DNA of 64,000 nucleotides from a bacterium (GTDB lineage Bacteria > Planctomycetota > Planctomycetia > Planctomycetales > Planctomycetaceae), in contig WGMU01000018.1 of assembly GCA_016124895.1 (NCBI GenBank), positions 1 through 64,000 on the forward strand. The letters are read 5' to 3'. Both the position numbers and the translations under genes were made by a program. Below are positions 4,622 to 53,255 of the stretch, piece after piece (position 1 is the stretch's first letter; every line of letters starts with the position of its first letter). Under the pieces are notes generated by a model. It searched no databases and was not told where the DNA came from. It saw only the letters and a list, made by a program, of their open reading frames with translations.

Positions 4622-7168
4622 TCAGGCGTCGAGGTCGGCCAGCACGCTGGCTGACAGTTTGAAGTTCTCGTCGATTTCGTTCGGGCCGCCGTCCAGAACA
4701 TCGTTGCCCTGATTGCCGGCCAGCGTGTCGCCACCGATATCGGCATTGCCGCGGACATCGTCGTCTCCATCGCCACCAAGAACGATGTCGTCACCAGCCT
4801 CGCCGAACAGCACATCGTTGCCGTCACCACCAAGGACGGTGTCATCGCCATCGCCACCCTGGACCGTGTCGTTACCATTCGCTCCGGTCATCAGGTCGTT
4901 ACCCGTGCCACCGGTGATAAAGTCGTCGCCGTCGCCGCCGTTGAGCGTGTCGTTACCGGCGTCGCCACTGATGGCATCGTTGCCGTCGCCACCGCGAGCC
5001 CGGTCATTACCGGCTCCACCCTGCAGTGTGTCGTTCCCGGCACCGCCATCGAGCGTGTCCGACCCCGCCAGGCCGAGCAGTACGTCGTCGCCCGTGTTGC
5101 CCAGCAGCGAGTCATCCCCCCCTTGACCGTTGATTGTGTCATTGTCCGCACCGCCATCGACGAAGTCCGCTCCATCGCCGCCTTCAATGTCGTCGTTCCC
5201 GGCGCCGCCGAAGATGACGTCAAAGCCACTGTGTCCAACGATACGATCGTTGCCGGCTCCTCCGTCGATCGTGTCGTTACCACCGTTGCCCTGAATGATG
5301 TCGCGATCGTTGCCGCCGAAGATCTGGTCGTTGCCGCCCATGCCGCGCAGCGTGTCGAGCCCGTCGCCCCCGTCGATGACATCGGCGCCGTCGCTGCCCG
5401 TGATGTCGTCGTTGCCGGCTTCACCGTTCAGGACCAGAGCGGCCCCACCGATTGTGGCCCCGTCAGCGCTAATCGTGTCGGCTCCGAAGCCACCGTCGAT
5501 CTCAACCGTCATGCCATCGGCACCAGTGAGGCTCTTGATGATGATGGTGTCCTCACCACCGCGGCCATTGACAATCAGGCGGTTGACCGACCGATCAACA
5601 AGCACCGTGTTACCTCCAGCCGTGACCGCGACGCCGCTGCCTGAGTCGGGCGTGGCGACGGTAAACGCGTCGTCCGACCCAGTTCCACGCAGCTCGACGG
5701 TATCGTTTCCGGCCGTCGCACTGTAACGGTCGCTGCCCTCGCCGATGTCCCACAGAATCAGATCGTCACCGGTTCCGCCGTCGATCGTGTCACGTGAACG
5801 TCCGCCATCGATCGTATCGTTGCCGCTGCCGCCGCCAATCAAATCGCCGCCGGAATCACCCAGCAGCAGGTCGTCGCCTTCGCCTCCGTCAATGACATCG
5901 CTGCCGGCGTTACCACGAATCGTATCGTTGCCGGACGTGACGATGGCTCCGACTTCGTCGTCACCGAAGATCGTGTCATTGCCGCTGTTGCCGGTGATCA
6001 GGTCGTCGGCGTCACCACCTTCGATATGGTCAGCGCCACCGCCGCCACGGATCGTATCGCTGCCGGTTTCGCCCAGAATGTAATCACTGTGACTGCCACC
6101 GATCAGCGAATCGTTACCCCGGCCGCCGTAAATGACGTCATTGCCGTTGCCGCCATTCACCGTGTCGTTGCCGGAAACGGCACTGAAGACGTCGTCGCCA
6201 CGGATCGTGTCCGGACCGTCTCCGCCGTCAATCCGATCGTTGCCGGCACCGCCTTCGATTACGTCTGCACCGGCCTGACCGTCGATGCGGTCATCGCCAG
6301 TACCACCGATCAGAACATCGCGGCCGCCGCCGCCGCTGATCGTGTCGTTGCCGTTGCCGCCATCGATCGTGTCCTGCCCGCCGCCGCCGCGCAGAGTGTC
6401 ATCGCCGTCGAAGCCACGGATATTGTCATTGCCATTACCGCCGTCGATGAAGTCGGCACTCGATCCCAGAAAGCCCGGAGTGTCGCCCTGGATATCGTCA
6501 TTCCCGTCGCCACCGTCGATCGTATCGGAGCCGACTGAACCATCAATCGTGTCGTTTCCGTCCCCACCGAGGATGCTGTCGTCGCCGGCGCCGGCATTGA
6601 TGTTATCGTTTCCGTTTCCGCCGATGACGACGTCGTTACCCAGGCCGCTGCTGAGAACGTCGTTGCCGTCACCGCCTTCAATCCGGTTGATACCGTTGCC
6701 GCCGCTGATGATGTCGTTGCCGTCGCCACCGACCAGAGTATCCTGCATATCCAGGCTGCCGAGGATTGTGTCGTCGCCGGCTCCACCCTCGACGCGGATC
6801 GAAGTCAGGTTAGTAAATCCGACGGCAGACACGCCGGAGATGTTGATGTCGTTATTTCCGCCTCCGCCGCGGACCTGCAGCGACTGAACCTGGCTGGTCA
6901 GAATCGATGCGGTCGATGAATCCACCTGGCCGTTTGCCAACACCTGCACAAGGTTCGTATTGGTCGGATTGCGCCGGACGGTAATCGAGTCGGCCGCGTC
7001 GGAAGCGACGGTCAGTGTCCCGCCAATAAAGAACGTCGAGACTGAAAGGACCGTACGGTCTTCCAGGTTCTCAAGATTGGCTGACACCGGTTCGCGGAAG
7101 AGGCGACGCCGGCGGGAACTGCGAGCAAGGCGGTTGCGAAACGCGTCAAGCCAGGCCGAGAACTGCAT
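4622..7168 (-). CDS. Large RTX-type calcium-binding repeat protein with LEPR-XLL-like N-terminus
   Basis: 848 aa. Two long blocks of GGxGxDxxx nonapeptides (about residues 125-480 and 580-835) form hemolysin-type calcium-binding repeats, which fold as beta-rolls when calcium is bound outside the cell. Between them is a non-repetitive stretch of about 100 residues. The N-terminus is not a classical signal: a basic segment (RLARSSRRRRLFRE) leads to NLENLEDRTVLSV at residues 31-43, a variant of the LEPR-XLL motif found at the start of many very large planctomycete surface proteins. No enzyme domain is visible, so it may be purely structural or adhesive. No type I secretion genes lie next to it. 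The strong DNA-level repetition also produces long false reading frames on the opposite strand. Confidence 0.85.
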   Translation of the reverse strand: MQFSAWLDAFRNRLARSSRRRRLFREPVSANLENLEDRTVLSVSTFFIGGTLTVASDAADSITVRRNPTNTNLVQVLANGQVDSSTASILTSQVQSLQVRGGGGNNDINISGVSAVGFTNLTSIRVEGGAGDDTILGSLDMQDTLVGGDGNDIISGGNGINRIEGGDGNDVLSSGLGNDVVIGGNGNDNINAGAGDDSILGGDGNDTIDGSVGSDTIDGGDGNDDIQGDTPGFLGSSADFIDGGNGNDNIRGFDGDDTLRGGGGQDTIDGGNGNDTISGGGGRDVLIGGTGDDRIDGQAGADVIEGGAGNDRIDGGDGPDTIRGDDVFSAVSGNDTVNGGNGNDVIYGGRGNDSLIGGSHSDYILGETGSDTIRGGGGADHIEGGDADDLITGNSGNDTIFGDDEVGAIVTSGNDTIRGNAGSDVIDGGEGDDLLLGDSGGDLIGGGSGNDTIDGGRSRDTIDGGTGDDLILWDIGEGSDRYSATAGNDTVELRGTGSDDAFTVATPDSGSGVAVTAGGNTVLVDRSVNRLIVNGRGGEDTIIIKSLTGADGMTVEIDGGFGADTISADGATIGGAALVLNGEAGNDDITGSDGADVIDGGDGLDTLRGMGGNDQIFGGNDRDIIQGNGGNDTIDGGAGNDRIVGHSGFDVIFGGAGNDDIEGGDGADFVDGGADNDTINGQGGDDSLLGNTGDDVLLGLAGSDTLDGGAGNDTLQGGAGNDRARGGDGNDAISGDAGNDTLNGGDGDDFITGGTGNDLMTGANGNDTVQGGDGDDTVLGGDGNDVLFGEAGDDIVLGGDGDDDVRGNADIGGDTLAGNQGNDVLDGGPNEIDENFKLSASVLADLDA

Positions 7169-7472
7169 GGGATCCGTCCCTGTGCTGAGATTCCTGAGTC
7201 ATAGATTGCTGCGGCTGAGACTTGTTCGGCTCGCCACCTGTCCCGGACTCGTGTCCGGTCATTGAAACATCCTGCCAGAGCCGGAAGCTCCTTGCGGGAG
7301 GTATCGACATCCGATCTTCGGAATCGTCGACATTGGTCGTAATCGCCCTGGAGTTGGCCCAACCGGATGAGCCCCACGAACCGCTAACTCTTTGCTATCC
7401 TGCCCGGATTTCCGTGAGAGACGCGAATGTACGACAGAGAACAGGCTGGCGGGGCAATCTGTCGCAGCCAGA

Positions 7473-39912: not shown

Positions 39913-40611
39913 ATGGCCTTCCAGAACCGCTTGATCCACCCTGGACGCTTCTGGCTGCTTCTGCTGATATTTTTCGGGAACGTAGTGGCGGCGATTGCCG
40001 CTGACGGTCCTTCAGGACAGGAAAAGCACTACGTTCAGTTGACGGTCATCGGGAAGATTGACGCGGGGCAGAATTCAGTCACGGCCAGCGGAGAGCCGCC
40101 AGAATATGCAGATGCTGCATTTGCTGTCGATTTTTCAAAGTCGCCGCAGGCACAGGCTGACTTTCGGGAAATGAACGGAAAAACCTCTGTCGTTCGTGGC
40201 TACTACGTTCAATGCACCAGGGAAGGAAAAAACGGTAAACCACGCTGCAATGCTAACCAAAGCCCCATCGGGCTTTTTCTGCAACCCGTTAGCATTCAGA
40301 CGCTCCGAACTCCTGACGGAGATGTTTCCACCAAGGACCACTCTGTGTCGGTCGTATGCCGAGGTCTTCTTCACACAGGTGTCGTTGCAGTTGGCGGAGA
40401 AACGACAGGTTTCACCATTGAGATTACTCCTGACGGCAGGGAGACATGGGAACTCGATATGAGCAGGAAGCTACTTTCAAAGGCAATGAAGGCAGACGGA
40501 AAATCCGTTGTTGTGAGCGGCCAACTGAAGATTCGGAAAAGTGTCGCTGTTCCCGAGCGATGGGTTATTACTGTCCGGAGTCTTGCGACCGAGCCAGATG
40601 CACAGAACTGA
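39913..40611 (+). CDS. Hypothetical secreted protein
   Basis: 232 aa. Signal peptide FWLLLLIFFGNVVAAIAADG with a probable cut after AIAA. The mature protein is beta-rich (HYVQLTVIGKIDAGQNSVTA, KTSVVRGYYVQC, KSVVVSGQLKIRKSVAVPERWVITVRSL) and resembles small planctomycete periplasmic proteins of unknown role. Codon use looks less GC-biased than in neighbours, and it lies just after a transposase fragment, so it could be a later arrival. No family assigned. Confidence 0.7.
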   Translation: MAFQNRLIHPGRFWLLLLIFFGNVVAAIAADGPSGQEKHYVQLTVIGKIDAGQNSVTASGEPPEYADAAFAVDFSKSPQAQADFREMNGKTSVVRGYYVQCTREGKNGKPRCNANQSPIGLFLQPVSIQTLRTPDGDVSTKDHSVSVVCRGLLHTGVVAVGGETTGFTIEITPDGRETWELDMSRKLLSKAMKADGKSVVVSGQLKIRKSVAVPERWVITVRSLATEPDAQN

Positions 40612-41219: not shown

Positions 41220-41804
41220 TTGCGTACGATCTCTGATGAGCAGGACCAACACCTGATCGAGGACGCAGGCGTGTCTGAAGTTCAGAGCGGCAGCCAGTAC
41301 GAGGAGTTTCTTCGCCAGTTCACGCGCGAGCGAGAACGCGTTTACGCTTATATTTACGCCCTCGTTCCGCACCAGCCGGATGCGGAAGACATCTTCCAGC
41401 GTTGCAGCCTTGTGTTGTGGCGAAAGTTCAGTGACTTCCGCTGCGGCGAGAACTTTCTCGCGTGGGCTTGTGGCGTCGCACATTTTGAAGTTCGCAACTA
41501 TCTGAGAACGGCCGGACGTGACCGTCTGCAGTTCGACGAAGACCTGATTCAGCAGCTCGCGACTCGGCGACTTGAGTCACTGTCCGTGTATGAGCAGCGG
41601 CTGGCAGCGTTGAGGGCCTGCCTGAAAGGTCTGAACCTGGAACAGCGACAACTGATCGAGGTGGCCTACGGCAACGAGGGCACGATCAAGCGACTGGCCG
41701 AAGCAACCGGCTATGCCGTGCAGACTCTGTACAACCGGCTCAACAGACTGCGCCGGCAGTTGCTGGAGTGTGTTGAACGCCGACTTTCGGTCGAGGAGTC
41801 GTGA
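41220..41804 (+). CDS. ECF sigma factor (Rhodopirellula/Verrucomicrobium type)
   Basis: 194 aa from a TTG start; a GTG at 41271 with GAGG upstream is an equally good start and would give 177 aa. Region 2 is QYEEFLRQFTRERERVYAYIYALVPHQPDAEDIFQRCSLVLWRKFSDF, and region 4 is AALRACLKGLNLEQRQLIEVAYGNEGTIKRLAEATGYAVQTLYNRLNRLRRQLLECV. This is the small ECF type common in planctomycetes and verrucomicrobia. It is the first gene of a five-gene operon and is only 3 nt from the FecR-like gene, which likely controls it. Confidence 0.92.
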   Translation: MRTISDEQDQHLIEDAGVSEVQSGSQYEEFLRQFTRERERVYAYIYALVPHQPDAEDIFQRCSLVLWRKFSDFRCGENFLAWACGVAHFEVRNYLRTAGRDRLQFDEDLIQQLATRRLESLSVYEQRLAALRACLKGLNLEQRQLIEVAYGNEGTIKRLAEATGYAVQTLYNRLNRLRRQLLECVERRLSVEES

Positions 41805-41807
41805 TCA

Positions 41808-43181
41808 ATGGGCGCCTCAGGAAGCCGCTCAGAAATGACGGGGCTGCTGAGTTCCCTCTGGGACGGAGGCATCACGGCAGAGCAGCTTGCGCGTCTGCAA
41901 CTGCTGTTGCGCGATAATCCGGGTGCGCAGCACGAGTATCTGAAGTCGCTCGATCTTCACCTGGGTCTGAAGCACCTGGTTACCGCCGAAGTTGCAACGG
42001 ACGCTTCAGCAATTCCTGGTCTCGAAACGTCGTCCCCGGCCGCGACTCGGCTGATCACGCTGCGCCATCGAGCCGTGACGGTCGTGGCGGCCACTCTGGC
42101 GATTACTGCCAGCCTGATTGCTGTCCTGTTACTCGGTACGCCAGAAGAACTGAACCGACAGCAGGAAGTGATGAGCATCGTTCAGTCTGACGGTGTTATC
42201 CGTATCCGGCCTGTTGACGGTGAAAGCCGAACGGCGACTGCTGGAATGCAGGTCTTTCCAGGCGAACGTCTCGAAACGGAAGGTCGAGGCTCGGCCACAC
42301 TGACTTTTGAAGACGGTACGCGACTGACAATCGTGAATGGGGGCTCGTTGTCGCTCGTGCCAGGCAATCGCAAAAGCATCATGCTGCATCGCGGGATCGT
42401 GTCGGCTGCGGTCGCGCGGCAGCCAGCGGGGCATCCAATGCTGCTTGCAACGCCGCGGGCGCGCGTCGACGTTCTGGGGACCCGGTTTGCCATCTCCGCA
42501 AGTCGTGAAGCGACGGAACTGAATGTGTCAGAAGGACGCGTCCGGGTCACGCGGGTCTCTGACGGGCGCACTGTCGAAGTGCGCCAGGGACAGGGCGTTG
42601 TCACGCGTGGAGACGTCGAATTGACTGTCAGCGAGTCGGCGAGACCGCGCGAAGTCTGGGAGGTCAGTTTCGAGGATGGTGTCCCGCCGGGCTGGACGGG
42701 AGCAGCGACTGCAGAACATCTGCCGGCTGGCTCACGCGGGGCGATCCGGACAGTGGGCGACACGACGAGCACCCCACTGGTTTACGTCATTGCCTCGCGC
42801 GACGAGTGGGTGGAAGGATTATTCGCGATTGACGAAGACACGCATCTGCACATCACGATGAAAATGGAGCATCCGGACTGGCTGAACGTTTTCCTGTCGA
42901 CGCGCCGGCCAGACGCGACAGATCCAACGTGGACACTGCACAATTTCAACGAAGTTCCCTTCTGGCCGCCCAGACCTGGTCAGTGGCAGACGCTGACGAT
43001 TCCTCTGACCGAGTTCCGTCGCAAACGCGATGGAGTGTTTCAGCATGAACCACCGGTGACTGGCGGAGTCGCTTACTCACTGAGTATCAGTGCGACCGAA
43101 CCAGACCGCGGACTCGTCATCGATCGCATCTGGACGACTCGCGGAGGTCCGGGCGAAGTTCAGAGCGTCCCGTTACCCTGA
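41808..43181 (+). CDS. FecR-like transmembrane regulator
   Basis: 457 aa. The cytoplasmic N-terminus (about 1-85) is helical with LLSSLWDGGITAEQLARLQLLL, as in planctomycete FecR proteins. One transmembrane helix (AVTVVAATLAITASLIAVLLL) follows near residue 88-110. The outer part has the FecR domain: ERLETEGRGSATLTFEDGTRLTI, HRGIVSAAVARQPAGHPMLLATPRARVDVLGTRFAI and LNVSEGRVRVTR. The C-terminal 170 residues look like a beta-sandwich (WEVSFEDGVPPGWTGA, WLNVFLSTRR) that may sense a ligand. It presumably transmits an outside signal to the sigma factor encoded just upstream. Confidence 0.9.
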   Translation: MGASGSRSEMTGLLSSLWDGGITAEQLARLQLLLRDNPGAQHEYLKSLDLHLGLKHLVTAEVATDASAIPGLETSSPAATRLITLRHRAVTVVAATLAITASLIAVLLLGTPEELNRQQEVMSIVQSDGVIRIRPVDGESRTATAGMQVFPGERLETEGRGSATLTFEDGTRLTIVNGGSLSLVPGNRKSIMLHRGIVSAAVARQPAGHPMLLATPRARVDVLGTRFAISASREATELNVSEGRVRVTRVSDGRTVEVRQGQGVVTRGDVELTVSESARPREVWEVSFEDGVPPGWTGAATAEHLPAGSRGAIRTVGDTTSTPLVYVIASRDEWVEGLFAIDEDTHLHITMKMEHPDWLNVFLSTRRPDATDPTWTLHNFNEVPFWPPRPGQWQTLTIPLTEFRRKRDGVFQHEPPVTGGVAYSLSISATEPDRGLVIDRIWTTRGGPGEVQSVPLP

Positions 43182-43244
43182 TCGGCGCAGCGTCCAATGG
43201 ACGCAATGTCCGACAAGAATCTGGCAAAAAGAAAAGAGGTCCCC

Positions 43245-44579
43245 ATGTCCCGCCAGCCGATTTCCCGACGCACGGTGCTCAAGACAATGGGCGCCGTTGT
43301 TCCGCTTCCCATCCTGGAGGCGATGTCTTCCGGCTCTGCTCTGGCAACTGGCGGCTCCACAGTGCCGCCGCGCATGCTGATTTGCCACTTCGGGACCGGA
43401 ATGAATATCCGGGAGTTCTTTCCGAAGAAAACCGGACCCGAATGTGCGCTGCCTCGAATTGTCCGACCGCTCGAAGCCTGGCGGAAACGGATGACGATTG
43501 TCTCCGGGCTGCAGCTTGAACACGGCGGTGGTCACACCGGGGACTATACGTTTCTGACAGGCACCGAGGGCTGGACGTCGACCGGCATCAAAAGCGGCAT
43601 CTCGGCCGATCAGGTCGTTGCGAACGCGGTCGGGCAGGCGACGCGGTTTCCTTCGCTGCAGCTTTCCATTCTTCGTGGCACGAATTACGGGCAGCAGGGA
43701 CTCGCCACGCTTTCGTGGAACAGGAACGGAATCCCGCTGGCCGCCGAGAACGATCCGCATGTGGTCTTCCAGCGGCTGTTCGGAATTGACGACGAGCAGG
43801 ACGCCGCTCGGCGTCAGGCCGGTTTTCGCCGCCGCGGCAGCATTCTCGATTACGTCAACGGTCAGGCGAAACATCTTCAGCGTCGCGTCGGCAGCGCTGA
43901 CCGCGACAAGCTCGACGAGTACTTCACGTCCGTTCGGGAAATCGAAAGCCAGTTGCAGCGTGATATCGACTGGTCGAAGAAGCCCAAGGCACAACCGGAG
44001 CTTGACGGTCTGGGTGACTACTCACGCAGCCTCACTCCGCAGTCGCCGGGCTTTGACTACACCACTTATCAGAAGCTGATGTATGACTTGATCGCTCTGT
44101 CGTTTCAGACAGATTCGACGCGTGTGATCACGTACAACGTGCGCCGTGAACTCTCCGGTGGAACGTTCCCCGTGCATCACGTCTCGAAAGGCTTCCACGC
44201 GCTGACGCACCACAACAACGACCCGAAGAACCTGGACGAACTCGCTCAGGTCGACGAAATCAACATGGGGTTCTGGTCAAAATTCCTCGCGCGGATGGAT
44301 CAGATTCCGCAGGCCGACGGTCGCAGCCTGCTCGACCACACGGTGATTGCGTACTCATCCAGTGCCGGCATGGACCATTCGCGCGACAGACTGCCGACCG
44401 CCATCTTTGGCGGCGAGGCACTCGGCCTGACGCATCAGACACATCTGAAACTTGCCGACGGCACACCGCTTTCGCGCGTCTGGCACACCATGGCCGACCG
44501 CATGGGCGTGGCGACGGAAACGCTGCAGGACAGCCCCGGTCCGATTACCGAACTGCTGCGAGGCCAGGTGCATCCATGA
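43245..44579 (+). CDS. Tat-exported DUF1552 protein
   Basis: 444 aa. The leader ISRRTVLKTMGAVVPLPILEAM is a twin-arginine signal. The DUF1552 body includes PPRMLICHFGTGMNIREFFPK, MTIVSGLQLEHGGGHTGDYTFLTG, RGTNYGQQGLATLSWNRNG, DKLDEYFTSVREIESQLQ and LLDHTVIAYSSSAGMDHSRDRLP. Related to DUF1501, its activity is unknown. DUF1552 genes are regularly paired with DUF1592-family cytochromes, as here. ATG 43245, with GAGG 5 nt upstream, is preferred over 43197. Its stop overlaps the next start as ATGA. Confidence 0.92.
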   Translation: MSRQPISRRTVLKTMGAVVPLPILEAMSSGSALATGGSTVPPRMLICHFGTGMNIREFFPKKTGPECALPRIVRPLEAWRKRMTIVSGLQLEHGGGHTGDYTFLTGTEGWTSTGIKSGISADQVVANAVGQATRFPSLQLSILRGTNYGQQGLATLSWNRNGIPLAAENDPHVVFQRLFGIDDEQDAARRQAGFRRRGSILDYVNGQAKHLQRRVGSADRDKLDEYFTSVREIESQLQRDIDWSKKPKAQPELDGLGDYSRSLTPQSPGFDYTTYQKLMYDLIALSFQTDSTRVITYNVRRELSGGTFPVHHVSKGFHALTHHNNDPKNLDELAQVDEINMGFWSKFLARMDQIPQADGRSLLDHTVIAYSSSAGMDHSRDRLPTAIFGGEALGLTHQTHLKLADGTPLSRVWHTMADRMGVATETLQDSPGPITELLRGQVHP

Positions 44580-46963
44580 ATCGAGTCTGCAGGCTTCCGC
44601 GACGTGTTCTGTACTGCCAGAAGATCCGTCTCAGGTTCTGCGCTGTCGTTGTCCAGTTGCTGGCATTGGCCGGCGTTGTTCGGTCAGACGAAATCACCAA
44701 TTCCCTGGGAATGACACTGCGGCTGCTGGATGCCGGACGCTTCGAAATGGGAGCACGCGACATTACTCCCGGCTTTTACGAGGATCATTCCGAGTTCAAC
44801 ACGGCTGAGGACGCTCGCCCGGTCCATCCCGTTGTGCTGACAAAGCCGTTCTACATGGCGACCACAGAAGTGACTCGCGGTCAGTTTCGCCGTTTCGTCG
44901 AGGAAACCGGCTACCGGACTTCGGCCGAACAGAACCCGCGCGGCGCCGTCGGGTGGGATCCGGAACCGCCGACGGACAACCCGCGCTTTGTGAGCACGTT
45001 CCGCGACGGCGGCGAGTTCCACTGGAAGCAGCCGGGCTTTGAACAGTCAGATGAACATCCTGCCGTCGCGGTCAGCTTCGTCGACGCCAAAGCCTTCTGT
45101 GACTGGCTCTCGAAACAGGAAGGTGTCCCTTACCGCCTGCCGACGGAAGCCGAATGGGAATACGCCGCGCGAGCCGGCACGCAGACGTACTTCTCGTTCG
45201 GCGATCCCTACCGTGGCCGGATTCAGCGTTATGCCAATATCGGCAATGTCGAGCTGGAAAAGGCGTTCCCCGACCGTGTCCGGCGGCAGTGGCTGATCGA
45301 CGTCGAGCACGACCCGGCCGACCGCCACGTCTTCACGGCACCCGTTGCAGAATACGAACCGAATCCGTGGGGCCTGTTCGACCTGTACGGCAATGTGTGG
45401 GAGTGGTGCGAGGATCGCTATCTCGACACGGCCTACCGGCCCTACGTGCGTCCGGGTTACCAGCAGCTTCGCGAGCGATCGATCGACCCGCTCAATCTGG
45501 AAAAGGCCAGCGGGGAAGGCGACTGGCGGGTCATCCGCGGCGGATCGTGGTTCAACGCACCGGTTCAATGCCGCAGCGCCGTGCGAGGTTATTTTGAAGC
45601 CAGCGACGCGGCGTGCTTTCTGGGGTTTCGCGTTGTCCGCGAAGCACCGGAAGAGGTCGTCACCGCAGCACGACAACGGTTTGCAGAATCGGAAGCGGCC
45701 AGGGAAACGCTCCAAGGGCTCCTGGAACGCTTTCAGGAATGGCGCGACGGACGGCTGACACTGCACTTAAGGCTCGACAACCTCAATGATGAATTCTTCG
45801 CAGCACTGCAGGCACTGGACGAACCAGTCGATCTCTACCTGCACGCTGACAATCGTCTGACCGCCGCCGGGATCGCCGAACTCGCGAAAGCACGCAAGCT
45901 GACCGGACTGCTGCTGTCCGCAACCGGCCCGCAACTTTCCGACAGCGACTTTGCGGTGCTGGAGAGCCACTTGGAGCTGGAACTGCTGCAGATCACCGGC
46001 GCGCCGAAACTGACCGACGGCTTGCTGGCCTCGCTGAGGAATCATGATCGACTGGAACTGCTGCATCTGGACGGCCAGGGCATTACGGATGAAGGGCTGC
46101 GGCGGCTTCCCTCACTGAAACAGCTTGAAAAGCTGCAACTGGCCGGCACGTCGTCTCAAGGGCTCATTCTCGAACACTTCAGCGATTCGCCGTTGCGGAC
46201 CTTTTCCTGCAGCGGTCTGACTGACCAGGGAGCCCGGTTGCTGGGCTCGTTCGACCAGTTACGTGATCTGTCGCTCGATGGCAGCCCGATCACCGGAGAG
46301 GGACTTTCCGCCATCGCAGCGCTGTCGTGGCTCGATCGCTTGTCTCTGCAGAACTGCGCATCGCTGCGTGACGCAGACTTCGCTGTGCTCGGAAATCTGT
46401 ACGACCTGCGAACAGCTCAGTTGCAGCACACTTCCGCCGGAGACGCGGCGGTGACTGGACTCACCCGGTTGAACAACCTGCGGGAACTGCAGATTGGCAG
46501 CGAAAAGCTTTCCGACGCAGGCGTCCGCCGAATCTGCGAGATCGTCTCTCTGCATAATCTGGTACTCACTGAGGACGCTTCCTCGGTGACCGACGCGGGG
46601 CTGGCCGATCTGTGGCGGCTCGTCAATCTTCGCAGTCTCTCGATCGGCGCTCCGCGAATCACTGGCAGCGGCCTGGCAACGCTCGATGAACTGCCGAAGC
46701 TGGACTGGATGCAACTGACCGGTCCGGGCATCGGTGACGTTGCTCTGCAGCATGCAGCGCAGTCGCCAACTCTGCAGCGGATTTTCGTCGGAAACTGGCA
46801 GAACGGCGGCCCACCGGAATTGACCGATGCCGGCCTCGCGCATCTCGCCGAGTCACGCAGCCTGAAACAGGTTGACGTGATTCGCCGCGAGACGAGTCTG
46901 ACGGACGAAGCCGCCGAGCGGCTTCGCGAACGTCGACCACAACTCAACGTGAACCTTCGGTAA
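44576..46963 (+). CDS. Secreted FGE-like (sulfatase-modifying) and leucine-rich-repeat fusion
   Basis: 795 aa. After an N-terminal signal (AVVVQLLALAGVVRSDE) comes an FGE/SUMF-type domain, about residues 40-360: SLGMTLRLLDAGRFEMG, PFYMATTEVTRGQFRRFVEETGY, YRLPTEAEWEYAARAG, NPWGLFDLYGNVWEWCED and RVIRGGSWFN. From about 395 to the end are LRR units of the planctomycete type (ELTDAGLAHLAESRSLKQVDV, SVTDAGLADLWRLVNLRSLSI). FGE enzymes oxidise Cys in sulfatases to formylglycine, but many bacterial domains of this family have lost that activity, and no sulfatase lies nearby. The LRR part suggests target binding. Starts within the DUF1552 stop. Confidence 0.88.
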   Translation: MNRVCRLPRRVLYCQKIRLRFCAVVVQLLALAGVVRSDEITNSLGMTLRLLDAGRFEMGARDITPGFYEDHSEFNTAEDARPVHPVVLTKPFYMATTEVTRGQFRRFVEETGYRTSAEQNPRGAVGWDPEPPTDNPRFVSTFRDGGEFHWKQPGFEQSDEHPAVAVSFVDAKAFCDWLSKQEGVPYRLPTEAEWEYAARAGTQTYFSFGDPYRGRIQRYANIGNVELEKAFPDRVRRQWLIDVEHDPADRHVFTAPVAEYEPNPWGLFDLYGNVWEWCEDRYLDTAYRPYVRPGYQQLRERSIDPLNLEKASGEGDWRVIRGGSWFNAPVQCRSAVRGYFEASDAACFLGFRVVREAPEEVVTAARQRFAESEAARETLQGLLERFQEWRDGRLTLHLRLDNLNDEFFAALQALDEPVDLYLHADNRLTAAGIAELAKARKLTGLLLSATGPQLSDSDFAVLESHLELELLQITGAPKLTDGLLASLRNHDRLELLHLDGQGITDEGLRRLPSLKQLEKLQLAGTSSQGLILEHFSDSPLRTFSCSGLTDQGARLLGSFDQLRDLSLDGSPITGEGLSAIAALSWLDRLSLQNCASLRDADFAVLGNLYDLRTAQLQHTSAGDAAVTGLTRLNNLRELQIGSEKLSDAGVRRICEIVSLHNLVLTEDASSVTDAGLADLWRLVNLRSLSIGAPRITGSGLATLDELPKLDWMQLTGPGIGDVALQHAAQSPTLQRIFVGNWQNGGPPELTDAGLAHLAESRSLKQVDVIRRETSLTDEAAERLRERRPQLNVNLR

Positions 46964-49728
46964 TGGACCAGTCGATGCCGCACCCCATCAAAACTGCTCC
47001 CGTACTTTCCGGCTGGCGGAACTGCTGTGCCATCTCGGCTGTCTTGAGCCTGCTGTTCATCGCTGGTTGTGGCGAACAGAGCAGCAATGCCGCGTCCGTT
47101 GCTGCCTCCGAGTCATCATCTTCAGAGTCCCGGCCAGTTCCGGCGTCTGGATCCAGGCAGGACGCCGGCGCGATCGAGGTGACAGCAGCTTCAGTGCAAC
47201 GTGTCCCGCCGGTTGTTGACAGCCAGACGTTTGAAACGACCGTCCGTCCATTTCTGGTAAAGCACTGCGTCGCGTGTCACGGTGCAGAGACCGCCGAGGC
47301 GGAGTTGCGGCTCGACACACTGGCGGCGGACTTCGTGCAGCGGCCGGCAGTCGATCACTGGATCGAAGTGCTGGACCGACTCAACCTGGGCGAAATGCCG
47401 CCAGAAGACCGACCGCGCCCCGACGCCGCAGCGCTGACGCGCGTGATTGAGTGGATCACTTCCGAACTCCAGCTTGCCCGTGCCCGTTCGCAGTCGACGG
47501 GTGGCCGAGTGCTGCTGCGCAGACTCACACGGTTTGAGTACGCGAATACCGTTCGTGATTTGCTCAATGTCGACTTTGTTGAAGGCGAAGGTCCGCTCGA
47601 AGCGTTGCCGCCTGACGGAGCGATCGCCGGTTTCGACCGCGTCAGCAAGGCGCTGCTGCTTGATCCATCACTGATGGAAGCCTGCCTCAATGTCGCTCGG
47701 GAAGTCGCCGACCGGGCGGTGACGTTCCGCCCGCCGCTTGTGCCTCAAAGGACGCTGCGTTTTGAATTCGACCGCACGCCACATACGGCCATGAGCTACA
47801 TCCCGCATCACCGGGCCGCTGAAGTGGAGGGGGACTTTCTGGTCGTCATGGAAGGGAGGGCTCGAACGTTCGCCAGACTGCGGCACCCCTTTAATGACAA
47901 TGAGATCCCGATCACCGGCCGTTATCGCGTCCGTGTCCGAGCGGCCGCTGATCCGGGCACACGCGGCGAACCGGTCTACATGGACGTGCTGTTTGGAGCC
48001 GAAGGACGACAGGCGAGATTTCGCGTCGACTCACGAAAGGACGCTCCGGACATCTACGAGTTCGAGAAGACGTTTGACGCCTTTACACCCGGTGAGTTTG
48101 AAGTCGGCATCGTGAACGGCACGCGCTTCGGCCAGGGCAACGCCGAGTGGCATCAGCTCAATGGTGAGCTGACGAAGCTCGCTGAGCAGGGTGATCTGTT
48201 TGAGGCCACCATCAGAAAATCGCGGCTGCGGGCCGAAGGCGCGTACGACCACTTCGTTCGAGGTTCCTACCTGCCGCAGGTGCTGCATCTGGACGAACTG
48301 CCAAAGCTGTACCTCGAGTGGATTGAAGTGATCGGCCCGTTGCAGGGCGAGTTTCCTCCGTCGAGTATGGCCACGATTTTCGGTGACTCCGAAACAGCAG
48401 CTCTGTTTTCCAGGCCGGACACCGACCGCGATCAACTTCTGCAGGCGACGCGTGGCATCTTCGACCGACTGCTGCCGCGAGCATTCCGCCGGCCGGTCGC
48501 CCAGACGGAAGTGGATGCGCTCGTTGATCTCGTCAGGACCGAACTGCAGGCGGGAGCCAGTCCGGAGCAGTCCATTGAAACGGGGCTCGTCGCCATGCTG
48601 TGCGCACCCGACTTCCTGTTTCTGTTTGAGCCCGGGCGAGAGGACGACGCTCCTCGCCGCCTGACTGATCACGAACTCGCGTGCCGGTTGAGTTACTTCC
48701 TGTGGAGCACCATGCCGGATGCAGAACTGACGCGACTGGCCGACACCGGACAGCTCCAGTCACCGCCAGTACGCGCGGCACAAGTGGATCGCATGATCGC
48801 CGATCCCAGGATCGAAGGGTTCGTCAACAGCTTCGCCCGGCAGTGGCTGAAGGTCGGCGAGTTCGATCGCTTTGCCCCGGATCAGCAGATTTATCCCGAT
48901 TTCTATGCGACGGAAATGGCCGGCATCGAAGACGACGTCAAAGCGGAGCCGCTGGCATTTTTCCGCGAAATCCTGCAACACGACGAATCCGTCCTCAACT
49001 TACTCGACAGCGACTGGCTGATGCTCAATGAACGGCTGGCAAAGCTGTACGGGATCCCCGGAGTCGACGGGCCGGAGCTGCGGCGCGTCTCCCTGCATCG
49101 CGAGGCAAGCGACGCGGCCAGCAAACGACGCGGCGGCCTGCTGGGTATGGCCGGCGTACATCTGTGGGGAGCTGACGGTAATCGGACCAAACCGGTCGAA
49201 CGGGGCAAGTACCTGCTCACCGTACTGTTCAACGATCCGCCGCCTCCACCGCCGCCGAACGCGGGCGAAGTTGAGCCGAACCTGCGCGGCGAAACCCTGA
49301 CCGTTCGCGAACGTCTGGCCCGGCACCGCGAGCAGACAACGTGCAACAACTGCCATCGCCGGATCGACCCTTATGGCCTGGCAATGGAGAACTTCAACGT
49401 TATCGGTCAGTGGCGCGACCGTCTCGACGGCGAGAAACCGTTATCGCACTGGAGAGACAACCGGCCAGCCATCGACGCTTCCGGGACTCTGCCCAGTGGC
49501 CGCCGATTTGCAGACTTCGTTGAGTTCAAACAGGCGATTTCAGAGCAGCAGGAACGCTTCATTCAGGCACTGACAGAAAAGCTCTTCATCTATGCGCTGG
49601 GACGGACTGTCGAGCCTAGCGATCGACCAGCCATTACCGGGATTGCCAGCCAGAGTCTGAACGGCAACGCAACACTGCCGACGATGCTCAAGGCCATCGC
49701 CGCGAGTGACTCGTTTTTGTCAAAGTGA
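46963..49728 (+). CDS. DUF1592-family planctomycete cytochrome lipoprotein
   Basis: 921 aa. The lipobox LFIAGC (Cys 36) predicts a membrane-anchored lipoprotein. Domains in order: cytochrome c-like region with CVACH (102-106) and MPPEDRP; DUF1587 (RRLTRFEYANTVRDLLNVD); a beta-rich middle; DUF1595/DUF1592 (RAFRRPVAQTEVDALVDLV, RRLTDHELACRLSYFLWSTMPDAEL); DUF1588 (RGGLLGMAGVHLW, CNNCHRRIDPYGLAMENF, CxxCH 794-798); DUF1585 at the end (TEKLFIYALGRTVEPSD). Two heme sites are implied. The start overlaps the preceding stop as TAATG. It is the last gene of the ECF operon and pairs functionally with DUF1552. Confidence 0.93.
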   Translation: MDQSMPHPIKTAPVLSGWRNCCAISAVLSLLFIAGCGEQSSNAASVAASESSSSESRPVPASGSRQDAGAIEVTAASVQRVPPVVDSQTFETTVRPFLVKHCVACHGAETAEAELRLDTLAADFVQRPAVDHWIEVLDRLNLGEMPPEDRPRPDAAALTRVIEWITSELQLARARSQSTGGRVLLRRLTRFEYANTVRDLLNVDFVEGEGPLEALPPDGAIAGFDRVSKALLLDPSLMEACLNVAREVADRAVTFRPPLVPQRTLRFEFDRTPHTAMSYIPHHRAAEVEGDFLVVMEGRARTFARLRHPFNDNEIPITGRYRVRVRAAADPGTRGEPVYMDVLFGAEGRQARFRVDSRKDAPDIYEFEKTFDAFTPGEFEVGIVNGTRFGQGNAEWHQLNGELTKLAEQGDLFEATIRKSRLRAEGAYDHFVRGSYLPQVLHLDELPKLYLEWIEVIGPLQGEFPPSSMATIFGDSETAALFSRPDTDRDQLLQATRGIFDRLLPRAFRRPVAQTEVDALVDLVRTELQAGASPEQSIETGLVAMLCAPDFLFLFEPGREDDAPRRLTDHELACRLSYFLWSTMPDAELTRLADTGQLQSPPVRAAQVDRMIADPRIEGFVNSFARQWLKVGEFDRFAPDQQIYPDFYATEMAGIEDDVKAEPLAFFREILQHDESVLNLLDSDWLMLNERLAKLYGIPGVDGPELRRVSLHREASDAASKRRGGLLGMAGVHLWGADGNRTKPVERGKYLLTVLFNDPPPPPPPNAGEVEPNLRGETLTVRERLARHREQTTCNNCHRRIDPYGLAMENFNVIGQWRDRLDGEKPLSHWRDNRPAIDASGTLPSGRRFADFVEFKQAISEQQERFIQALTEKLFIYALGRTVEPSDRPAITGIASQSLNGNATLPTMLKAIAASDSFLSK

Positions 49729-50546: not shown

Positions 50547-53255
50547 ATGCAGCTTTCACGCACCTGGCTGACTGGCGTCGGACTCACGGTTCTGCTCCTG
50601 GGTTTTCTCGGCCTTGCCGAGTTCAATGACCTGGCTCTCGGGCAGAATGAAAAGAAAGCTCAAACACAGAGCGGCGCGAAGAAGCCAGGCCAGAAGAAAC
50701 AGGCCGGAAAGAAAAAGGCTGCGGACGAGTTCGCGACACCCGGCGCGTCTCAGGCAGACATCAGCCAGCAGGAGTTCATCCCGCCGGGTTCGCCGACTTC
50801 CCGCTACGAGCAGTTGCTGATCCGGGACGCCGCAGCCGGCGGCGCCCAGGTGCTGTCGGTCGGTGACTCGTATGATGATTTCGTCTCGGTGGCTCAGGAC
50901 AGCGCGGGAACCGTGTATGCCGCGTACGCCGCTTATTACGACGGCCATGATCAGATTCGGCTGCACAGACGGAACGAGAACGATCAGTGGTCCGTGTTTT
51001 CGCCAGTTCCGCTGGCCGGCCAGCGCGCCGATATCTGGATGCCGCAGCTTGCTGTCGATGGCAACGACCACCTGTGGGTCATCTGGAGTGAGCAGACCGG
51101 ACAGACTCCCGGTAACAGCGGCAACTGGGATCTGTATGCGCGACAGCGGCTCGAAACCCACTGGGGGCCACTTGTTCGTCTGACCGACGATCCAAAGCCG
51201 GACATCAATCATCACGTGGCGCGGGATGCTTCGGGCAATCTGCACGTCGTGTGGCAGGCGCATCCGGAAAACAGCGGCGATGTGCAGTACTGCTCGTTCA
51301 ACGGAAACGACTGGTCGAAGCCGTTGGCGGTGACGTCTGACGCAGAGAGCGACTGGTTCCCGCGTGTCGCGATCGATCATTCCGGCACGGCCTGGATCGT
51401 CTTCGACAGTTACCGCAACGGCGACTACGACGTCTTTCTGACGAGCGTCGCAAACGGCTCACCCGGTCAGGTCATTCCGATTGCGACGTCCACGTTTTAC
51501 GAAGCTCACGCCAGCGTCGCCTGTACGCGCGATGGTCACGTCTGGATTGCGTGGGAACAGGGCGGCCACAACTGGGGCAAGAACCAGGGACACTGGACAC
51601 GGGAGGAGAACCGCAATCAGGGCACAACTCTGGGCAGCGGTCGCGAAGTTCGAGTGGCGTGCTGGAAGAACGGCGAGTTACGGTCCGCGCCGGCCCTCGC
51701 ATCGGTCATCGCCAAAAGCCGCACCGGAGCCGTTTTGCCGTACGCGATGGCCGAACTGTCGACGTCCACCGACGATCGGCTGTGGCTGCGTTTCCGTCAT
51801 CTGACGATCGGACGTCAGCGGGCAGGCAACCGCTTCACGAGAGGCTGGACCGAGCAGGTCTCGTGGCTGACGAAAGATGGCTGGGCAGATCCTGTCGAAA
51901 TGCCAGCCAGCTACGGACGTATCAGCGTCTTCAGCCGCATCCTGCCGGCGAAAGACGGTGGGCTGCTCGTGGCATATTCCGGCGACGCCCGCAACGTCCA
52001 GAATTTCCATCAGCCGATCCACGACACGGCGATGTTCCGTCAACTGCCCGCCCCGGAAAGTGCCCCCGGGGCTCCGGAACTCGAACTTTATGATCCGCCC
52101 GAACCGCCAGCCGGAATCGCCGCGTGGAATTCGAGTCTGGAAGAAAAGCAGGTCCAGGCGATCCGCGATCATCGTGTCACGATCGACGGCGTCGAGCATC
52201 GGATCGTGCGCGGCGATCTGCATCGTCACACGGAACTGAGCTGGGATGTCGGGCCGGGGAACGATGGTTCCTACATCGATTTTTACCGCTACATGATTGA
52301 CGTCGCTGCGATGGACTTCGGCGGGCTGACCGATCATCAGGGCGGAGGCGGATACGCCTACTGGTGGTGGCTGAGTGAAAAGTCCTGCGATATGTACTAC
52401 CTGGCGCCGCGCTTCGTCCCGCTTTATGGCTACGAACGCAGCGCGAAGTTTCCGAACGGGCACCGCAACGTGTTTCACTCGTACCGTGGAGTCCCGGTCT
52501 TTCAGTTCCAGTTGACGCTGGATCAATCGGGCGTGTTTCCCGGCGTCGGCAGCGGAGCACTCGTCGATAACGACACGAAGTTGTTGTACGAGTACCTGCA
52601 CCGCTCGGGAGGCATCGCGATCTCGCACACCTCCGGCACATCCTCAATGGGCACGGACTGGCGCGACAACGACCCGGAAATCGAGCCCGTCGTCGAGATC
52701 TATCAGGGCGCGCGTAACAGTTACGAAACTCTCGGCGCTCCCCGCGTTCACCCGGAAGATCAGCCGCCGGCTCGCGCACCGGGCGGATTCCAGCAGGCAG
52801 GTCTGGTGTGGAACGCGTACAAGAAGGGTTACCGCCTGGGAACAATCGCATCGAGCGATCACGGCTCAACGCATATCAGCTACGCGCTGGTCTACACGCC
52901 GAAGAATGAACGGCAACCGATTATCGATTCGATCCGGAAGCGTCACACCTGGGGCGCCACCGAGAACATCATTCTGGAACTGTTCACCGATGGCGGCTTC
53001 ATGGGAGACGAACTGACCGTCGACGGCAAACCGTCGCTGCGGATCCGGGCGATCGGGACCGAACCGATTGCCGAACTCACGCTGGTGCGGAACAACGAGT
53101 ACGTCTACACGTCAAAACCCGGCAAACAGACGGTCGAGTTCAAATGGACGGACATGGCGACGTCCGACGACACCAACCTGTACTACTTCCGGGTCGTCCA
53201 GGCGGATGGCGAAATCGCCTGGTCAAGTCCTGTCTGGATCCACGTCAGGAAATGA
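50547..53255 (+). CDS. Exported beta-propeller and PHP-type metallohydrolase fusion (DUF3604-like)
   Basis: 902 aa. A signal peptide (VGLTVLLLGFLGLAEFNDLALGQ) and a Lys/Gln-rich linker lead to propeller-like repeats at about 85-480 (WVIWSEQTGQ, VVWQAHPENSG, WIVFDSYRNGD, WIAWEQGGHN, repeated W-x-x-W/F blades). From about 545 the PHP/DUF3604 domain follows: HRIVRGDLHRHTELSWD with metal ligands HxH, FGGLTDHQGGGG, GGIAISHTSGT and GTIASSDHGSTH. It ends with a beta-sandwich. PHP enzymes hydrolyse phosphoesters, but the substrate is unknown. GAGGAG 7 nt upstream supports the start. Confidence 0.85.
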   Translation: MQLSRTWLTGVGLTVLLLGFLGLAEFNDLALGQNEKKAQTQSGAKKPGQKKQAGKKKAADEFATPGASQADISQQEFIPPGSPTSRYEQLLIRDAAAGGAQVLSVGDSYDDFVSVAQDSAGTVYAAYAAYYDGHDQIRLHRRNENDQWSVFSPVPLAGQRADIWMPQLAVDGNDHLWVIWSEQTGQTPGNSGNWDLYARQRLETHWGPLVRLTDDPKPDINHHVARDASGNLHVVWQAHPENSGDVQYCSFNGNDWSKPLAVTSDAESDWFPRVAIDHSGTAWIVFDSYRNGDYDVFLTSVANGSPGQVIPIATSTFYEAHASVACTRDGHVWIAWEQGGHNWGKNQGHWTREENRNQGTTLGSGREVRVACWKNGELRSAPALASVIAKSRTGAVLPYAMAELSTSTDDRLWLRFRHLTIGRQRAGNRFTRGWTEQVSWLTKDGWADPVEMPASYGRISVFSRILPAKDGGLLVAYSGDARNVQNFHQPIHDTAMFRQLPAPESAPGAPELELYDPPEPPAGIAAWNSSLEEKQVQAIRDHRVTIDGVEHRIVRGDLHRHTELSWDVGPGNDGSYIDFYRYMIDVAAMDFGGLTDHQGGGGYAYWWWLSEKSCDMYYLAPRFVPLYGYERSAKFPNGHRNVFHSYRGVPVFQFQLTLDQSGVFPGVGSGALVDNDTKLLYEYLHRSGGIAISHTSGTSSMGTDWRDNDPEIEPVVEIYQGARNSYETLGAPRVHPEDQPPARAPGGFQQAGLVWNAYKKGYRLGTIASSDHGSTHISYALVYTPKNERQPIIDSIRKRHTWGATENIILELFTDGGFMGDELTVDGKPSLRIRAIGTEPIAELTLVRNNEYVYTSKPGKQTVEFKWTDMATSDDTNLYYFRVVQADGEIAWSSPVWIHVRK

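Follow-up and report, generated by a model that had tools for sequence, protein, structure and literature searches.

A tightly packed planctomycete operon that places an ECF sigma factor and a FecR-type protein in front of an exported cytochrome module

Introduction

Why should a sigma factor and a membrane-bound FecR protein stand directly before the genes of an exported cytochrome and its partners? This arrangement is found in the window, a 64,000-nucleotide stretch of contig WGMU01000018.1 from a member of the Planctomycetaceae (assembly GCA_016124895.1). A preliminary description, made from the DNA alone, took its ECF sigma, FecR, DUF1552, FGE-LRR, and DUF1592 genes for one self-regulated operon. 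In Rhodopirellula baltica, the ECF sigma factor RB10049 was suggested as the regulator of the PSD1/PSCyt2 protein RB10051 (Studholme et al., as cited in PMC2754498), so the pairing of ECF sigma factors with planctomycete cytochromes is already known in general. A DUF1552 protein is among the genes with a shared stress response (PMC2754498), and in Verrucomicrobia the PSCyt/PSD genes occur with two families of neighbours that have no known function (PMC5615132). Our literature search found no paper naming DUF1552 and DUF1592 together, and no earlier description of the FecR-linked DUF1552/FGE-LRR/DUF1592 form, of the conserved trio, or of the promoter motif reported here.

Results

Layout of the locus

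The five genes, their order, their domains, and their four junctions were confirmed as first described, on the open reading frames, the DNA, and Pfam (Table 1). The FecR gene follows the sigma gene after a 3-nt gap, with GAGGAG 5′ of its ATG. The DUF1552 gene follows after 63 nt, with AAAAGAGG 5′ of the ATG at 43245; a second possible in-frame ATG lies at 43197. The remaining junctions are an ATGA overlap (DUF1552/FGE-LRR) and a TAATG overlap (FGE-LRR/DUF1592). The sigma start is TTG at 41220 as reported, GTG at 41272 being equally plausible.

Table 1 Features of the five-gene locus in the window
Feature	Position	Strand	Basis or remark
ECF sigma gene	41220-41804	+	ORF list, DNA reading; Pfam, NCBIfam
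FecR-type anti-sigma gene	41808-43181	+	ORF list, DNA reading; Pfam
Intergenic spacer, 63 nt, FecR to DUF1552	43182-43244	+	Contains RBS for DUF1552
DUF1552 (HXXSHH) gene	43245-44579	+	ORF list; Pfam
FGE-LRR gene	44576-46963	+	ORF list; Pfam
DUF1592 diheme cytochrome gene	46963-49728	+	ORF list; Pfam
Terminator-like stem with T-run, end of DUF1592 gene (weak)	49702-49724	+	

The spacer between the FecR and DUF1552 genes holds a 6-bp hairpin with no T-run, and a scan of it found neither a sigma-70-like promoter nor a terminator. A same-strand gene (39913-40611) ends about 600 nt ahead of the sigma gene, and the gene 3′ of the DUF1592 gene is convergent; together with the stem at the end of the DUF1592 gene, these flanks fit a five-gene unit. 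The terminator scan of the whole region was not above chance, with 3 found against 8.0 expected. From the packing of the genes, we infer that all five are carried on one transcript. Past the convergent gene, which is SnoaL-like, the next same-strand gene (50547-53255, +) encodes a 902-aa protein without a Pfam match.

The sigma factor and the FecR protein

The sigma factor matches Sigma70_r2 (Pfam, 2e-10) and belongs to the TIGR02989 (Rhodopirellula/Verrucomicrobium) ECF subfamily, scoring 157.7 bits against the NCBI curated cut-off of 124.55 (NCBIfam). It forms a lone long branch in a sigma tree that is mostly without resolution, from which a single clade of cytochrome-linked sigma factors cannot be judged. 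The next gene encodes a protein with a FecR domain (PF04773, 5e-12, aa 154-246) and one hydrophobic membrane span (aa 90-108), residues 1-89 being the presumed cytoplasmic N-terminus. The FecR domain, the single span, and the adjoining ECF sigma gene are the marks of a FecR-type anti-sigma factor.

The sandwich-like domain that the preliminary description had seen at the C-terminus of this protein is present and common to its homologues. It is a separate, jelly-roll-like domain (aa 284-450), and the region is kept in most homologues at 31-39% identity to the window protein. The C-terminus matched SGBP_B_XBD in 8 of 12 homologues, weakly (best 7.6e-05; window 0.0033, below the Pfam cut-off). 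Against PDB profiles, it gave CIA30 and 1v0a at a weak 0.09-0.2, with a weak likeness to CIA30 and to the CBM11 of endoglucanase H. An AlphaFold model of the periplasmic part from the single sequence was poor (mean pLDDT 41.9). These matches suggest a jelly-roll of the glycan-binding type and nothing more specific.

The exported proteins

The DUF1552 protein (HXXSHH, PF07586, 5.2e-87) carries a HALTHH motif, and its start resembles a twin-arginine signal (SRRTVLK), the S-R-R of which is unchanged across seven orthologues. By hhalign, DUF1501 is a distant relative of the family (probability 96.8, 357 columns), a kinship that would explain the parallel partner genes of two planctomycete cytochrome types. 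A profile match to sulfatases (probability 21) was too weak for use. An AlphaFold model of DUF1552 from 7 sequences was poor (mean pLDDT 38.6), and no informative match came from a sequence search of solved structures with either DUF1552 or DUF1592.

The FGE-LRR protein combines an FGE-sulfatase domain (1.8e-53) with leucine-rich repeats behind a Sec-like export signal. PDB matches relate its FGE domain to true FGEs. However, aligned to solved FGEs, it has Asn in place of the first catalytic, copper-binding Cys (GGSWFNAPVQC against GGSYLCHDSYC), and no trio FGE that we read has the two catalytic cysteines together. Because the catalytic Cys is missing, the domain is probably a binding or structural one, a role that FGE domains play in other FGE-fold proteins.

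The DUF1592 protein (PSD4/DUF1592, 7e-42) has the domain order PSCyt1-PSD3-PSD5-PSD4-PSCyt3-PSD2, with heme sites CVACH at 102 and CNNCH at 794. The PSD3-PSD5-PSD4-PSCyt3-PSD2 order with CxxCH sites is the mark of planctomycete PSCyt3/PSD2-5 cytochromes. Its signal ends in IAGC, which makes it a putative lipoprotein.

A conserved trio with a variable regulator

Genomes of the order were searched with the FGE-LRR protein (150 genomes) and with DUF1552 (170 genomes), and the neighbourhoods were then read. The DUF1552, FGE(-LRR), and DUF1592 genes adjoin one another at no fewer than 17 loci besides the window (L052, L053, L054, L056, L058, L059, L061, L062, L063, L101, L102, L103, L123-L127), in variable order. 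The nearest relatives (L052 and L053) share the order of the window trio, D1552-FGE/LRR-D1592, at about 80% identity for DUF1552, 60% for FGE-LRR, and 72% for DUF1592. In five genomes from a different family of the same class (L123-L127), the order is D1592-D1552-FGE and the LRR part is missing; L056 has FGE/LRR-D1592-D1552. One locus, L101 (CALQJI020000060.1), carries the label of a Klebsiella pneumoniae MAG, with a planctomycete/Verrucomicrobia-type D1552-FGE/LRR-D1592 trio; almost certainly, this is a mislabelled bin.

Of the 18 loci, only the window and G017/L058 have a sigma-FecR pair beside the trio; some contigs, L054 for example, end too near the trio to inform on its neighbours. At L053, there is no sigma-FecR pair in about 6 kb upstream of the trio, and genomes G058 and G135 are not among the genomes matched by the window FecR. 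The trio usually occurs without the pair (for example L053, L123-L127) and so can do without this regulator. The FGE-LRR protein had been taken for an additional component of a cytochrome pair; the conserved trio instead makes it a core member. On gene neighbourhoods, then, this DUF1552 subfamily regularly has FGE(-LRR) as a third partner, and the sigma-FecR pair is a variable add-on.

Sigma-FecR pairs beside cytochrome genes

The expectation that relatives would share the five-gene order held for the components and failed for the order itself: the exact order was found at no other locus examined, and the components recur in other orders. All five occur in G017/L058 as SIG-FecR-D1592-D1552-FGE, followed by two sulfatase genes. 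G148/L114 and G336/L138 have SIG-FecR-D1592-D1552, G104/L120 has SIG-FecR-D1552-two genes-D1592, and in G514/L137 the SIG-FecR pair is divergent from D1552-two genes-D1592. Five of the six linked sigma factors, that of the window included, pass the TIGR02989 cut-off; that of G017 narrowly misses it, at 113.9 bits where 124.55 are needed. The same type of FecR also precedes heme-free WD40 lipoproteins at eight loci, one of them in the source genome.

The source genome has 22 PSCyt3 genes. The stated pairing of DUF1552 with DUF1592 cytochromes was borne out there by adjacency at 17 of the 21 loci examined, among which the window alone has a sigma-FecR pair or an FGE gene directly upstream or within the unit. 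Among the best six TIGR02989 sigma genes of this genome, four directly precede planctomycete-cytochrome genes. One is that of the window; the other three (C10, C1:37796, C181) stand before a PSCyt2-type cytochrome, or before an anti-sigma-like gene and then a cytochrome. This repeated linkage makes the ECF-cytochrome link systematic and not an accident of one locus. The described placing of an ECF sigma and a membrane anti-sigma beside an exported cytochrome operon is supported. On C10 (L067:10212-12449) and C1 (L068:8439-11678), an anti-sigma-like N-terminus and a membrane span are fused to PSCyt2-PSD1 directly after the sigma gene, and the C1 fusion has a weak FecR domain too; these cytochromes may themselves be the sensor. 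A further ECF sigma gene with a weak TIGR02989 match (C1, L144:8193-9188) lies directly after a same-strand D1552-D1592 pair.

A promoter motif in relatives

The motif CGTGGRATT-N12-14-GSYTA recurs before the sigma genes of relatives, mostly 35-60 nt from the start (L066, L109, L110, L111, L113, L115, L116, L120, L137, L138). Across seven genomes, the strict motif was matched 11 times and the reversed control twice, and the sole match in G104 and in G128 lies at the sigma-FecR operon. Further copies stand ahead of the divergent D1552 operon at L137 and, at L138, just upstream of a secreted LRR gene (6386-7261, -) that is divergent from SIG-FecR-D1592-D1552. For these relatives, the pattern supports a predicted direct autoregulation, with LRR, DUF1552, and DUF1592 genes under common control. 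The divergent LRR protein of L138 is comparable to the LRR portion of the window operon, and a second DUF1592 cytochrome gene of genome G336 lies downstream of a strict motif (L166, C24:15810).

A scan of the source genome with CGTGGRATN{12,15}TATNT gave a single hit, ahead of the sigma gene on C165, which suggests a one-operon regulon. A promoter motif shared with other ECF targets had been sought upstream of 41220; the relatives' motif is absent from the window, where even a looser pattern had no match. The preliminary proposal that the cytochrome pair is under its own signal-sensing unit stands as to the tight unit with sigma and FecR, whereas self-regulation at the window, with the motif missing, is something we infer. 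The window sigma may read a different promoter.

Discussion

The operon is real and probably functional, and we think it likely that it is a self-contained signal-response unit in which a ligand-sensing sigma switch drives an exported redox module. FecR, with its single span, would keep the TIGR02989 sigma factor inactive through its cytoplasmic N-terminus. A ligand bound at the periplasmic FecR and jelly-roll-like part, or membrane or redox stress reported by FecR, would free the sigma factor, which would then transcribe the operon and yield more of its own regulator along with the exported trio. The DUF1552 protein would be exported by Tat and the FGE-LRR protein by Sec, the latter as a non-catalytic binding or adaptor partner, and the diheme lipoprotein cytochrome would pass electrons. 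The conservation of the trio points to a likely physical complex.

It is possible, though in our view improbable, that sigma and FecR form an independent two-gene unit and that the trio is transcribed from a separate promoter, located in the 63-nt spacer or inside the FecR gene. The nearest relatives (L052, L053) have the trio alone, no second case of the exact five-gene order was found, a small hairpin lies in the spacer, and the relatives' motif is missing. However, the spacer is short and lacks a terminator or promoter-like site, sigma-FecR pairs are joined to D1592/D1552 several times (L058, L114, L120, L138), and the same promoter motif stands on both sides in L137/L138. Much less probable is control of the FecIRA type, in which a TonB-dependent receptor in the outer membrane would signal through FecR. 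The FecR domain and a weak match to the FecR equivalog model speak for it; however, the operon has no TonB receptor, and the single Plug domain of the whole genome, on contig C62, is unlinked to the window. The window FecR, like most of its homologues, also brings an additional domain of its own at the C-terminus. Lacking a linked TonB receptor, the window system is not a FecIRA copy. Some 4 kb separate that sole Plug domain (C62:114936) from a PSCyt3 cytochrome gene (C62:118868).

Least credible of all is a sulfatase system, with FGE-LRR acting as a functional formylglycine-generating enzyme for the activation of sulfatases. The strong Pfam match, the PDB matches to true FGEs, and the two sulfatase genes after the trio in G017 would agree with it, but one of the two catalytic cysteine positions holds Asn, no trio FGE read has both cysteines, the protein has an export signal, and the window operon lacks a sulfatase. 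Returning to the sigma switch with its exported redox module, a more speculative form of it, which we consider rather unlikely, is a glycan-sensing anti-sigma factor, with the carbohydrate-binding-like jelly-roll replacing the TonB receptor, that switches on a redox module attacking the sensed polymer. If so, planctomycetes would run oxidative, cytochrome-based counterparts of polysaccharide-utilisation loci. From a practical perspective, a cytochrome under a dedicated sigma switch offers a direct route to the signal and hence to the substrate, and the relatives' promoter motif makes regulons predictable.

Among known systems, E. coli FecI-FecR-FecA ferric citrate signalling also has an ECF sigma factor and a single-span FecR-domain regulator. 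Classical Fec signalling requires a TonB-dependent transducer. The window has none linked to it, its FecR has an extra jelly-roll-like domain, and the target is a cytochrome module instead of iron uptake. Also similar are the TIGR02989 sigma-FecR-WD40 lipoprotein operons (C165/L066 in the source genome; G008, G013, G025, G026, G030, G059, G128), with a related sigma factor and the same FecR with C-terminal domain. However, their targets are heme-free WD40 lipoproteins and not cytochromes, and most of them have the CGTGGRATT motif that the window lacks. The PSCyt/PSD genes of Verrucomicrobia frequently have sulfatases in their neighbourhood; unlike at the window, no sigma or anti-sigma is described with them in the main text of PMC5615132. 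Loci of the RB10049/RB10051 type, of which the source genome has three (C10, C1, C181), resemble the window in that an exported planctomycete cytochrome has an ECF sigma gene close by, whose product is its proposed regulator. Those loci carry PSCyt2/PSD1, often with DUF1501 partners, whereas the window has PSCyt1/PSCyt3 with PSD2-5, DUF1552, a separate FecR, and FGE-LRR. In its layout, the operon is an uncommon variation on a theme already known from planctomycetes.
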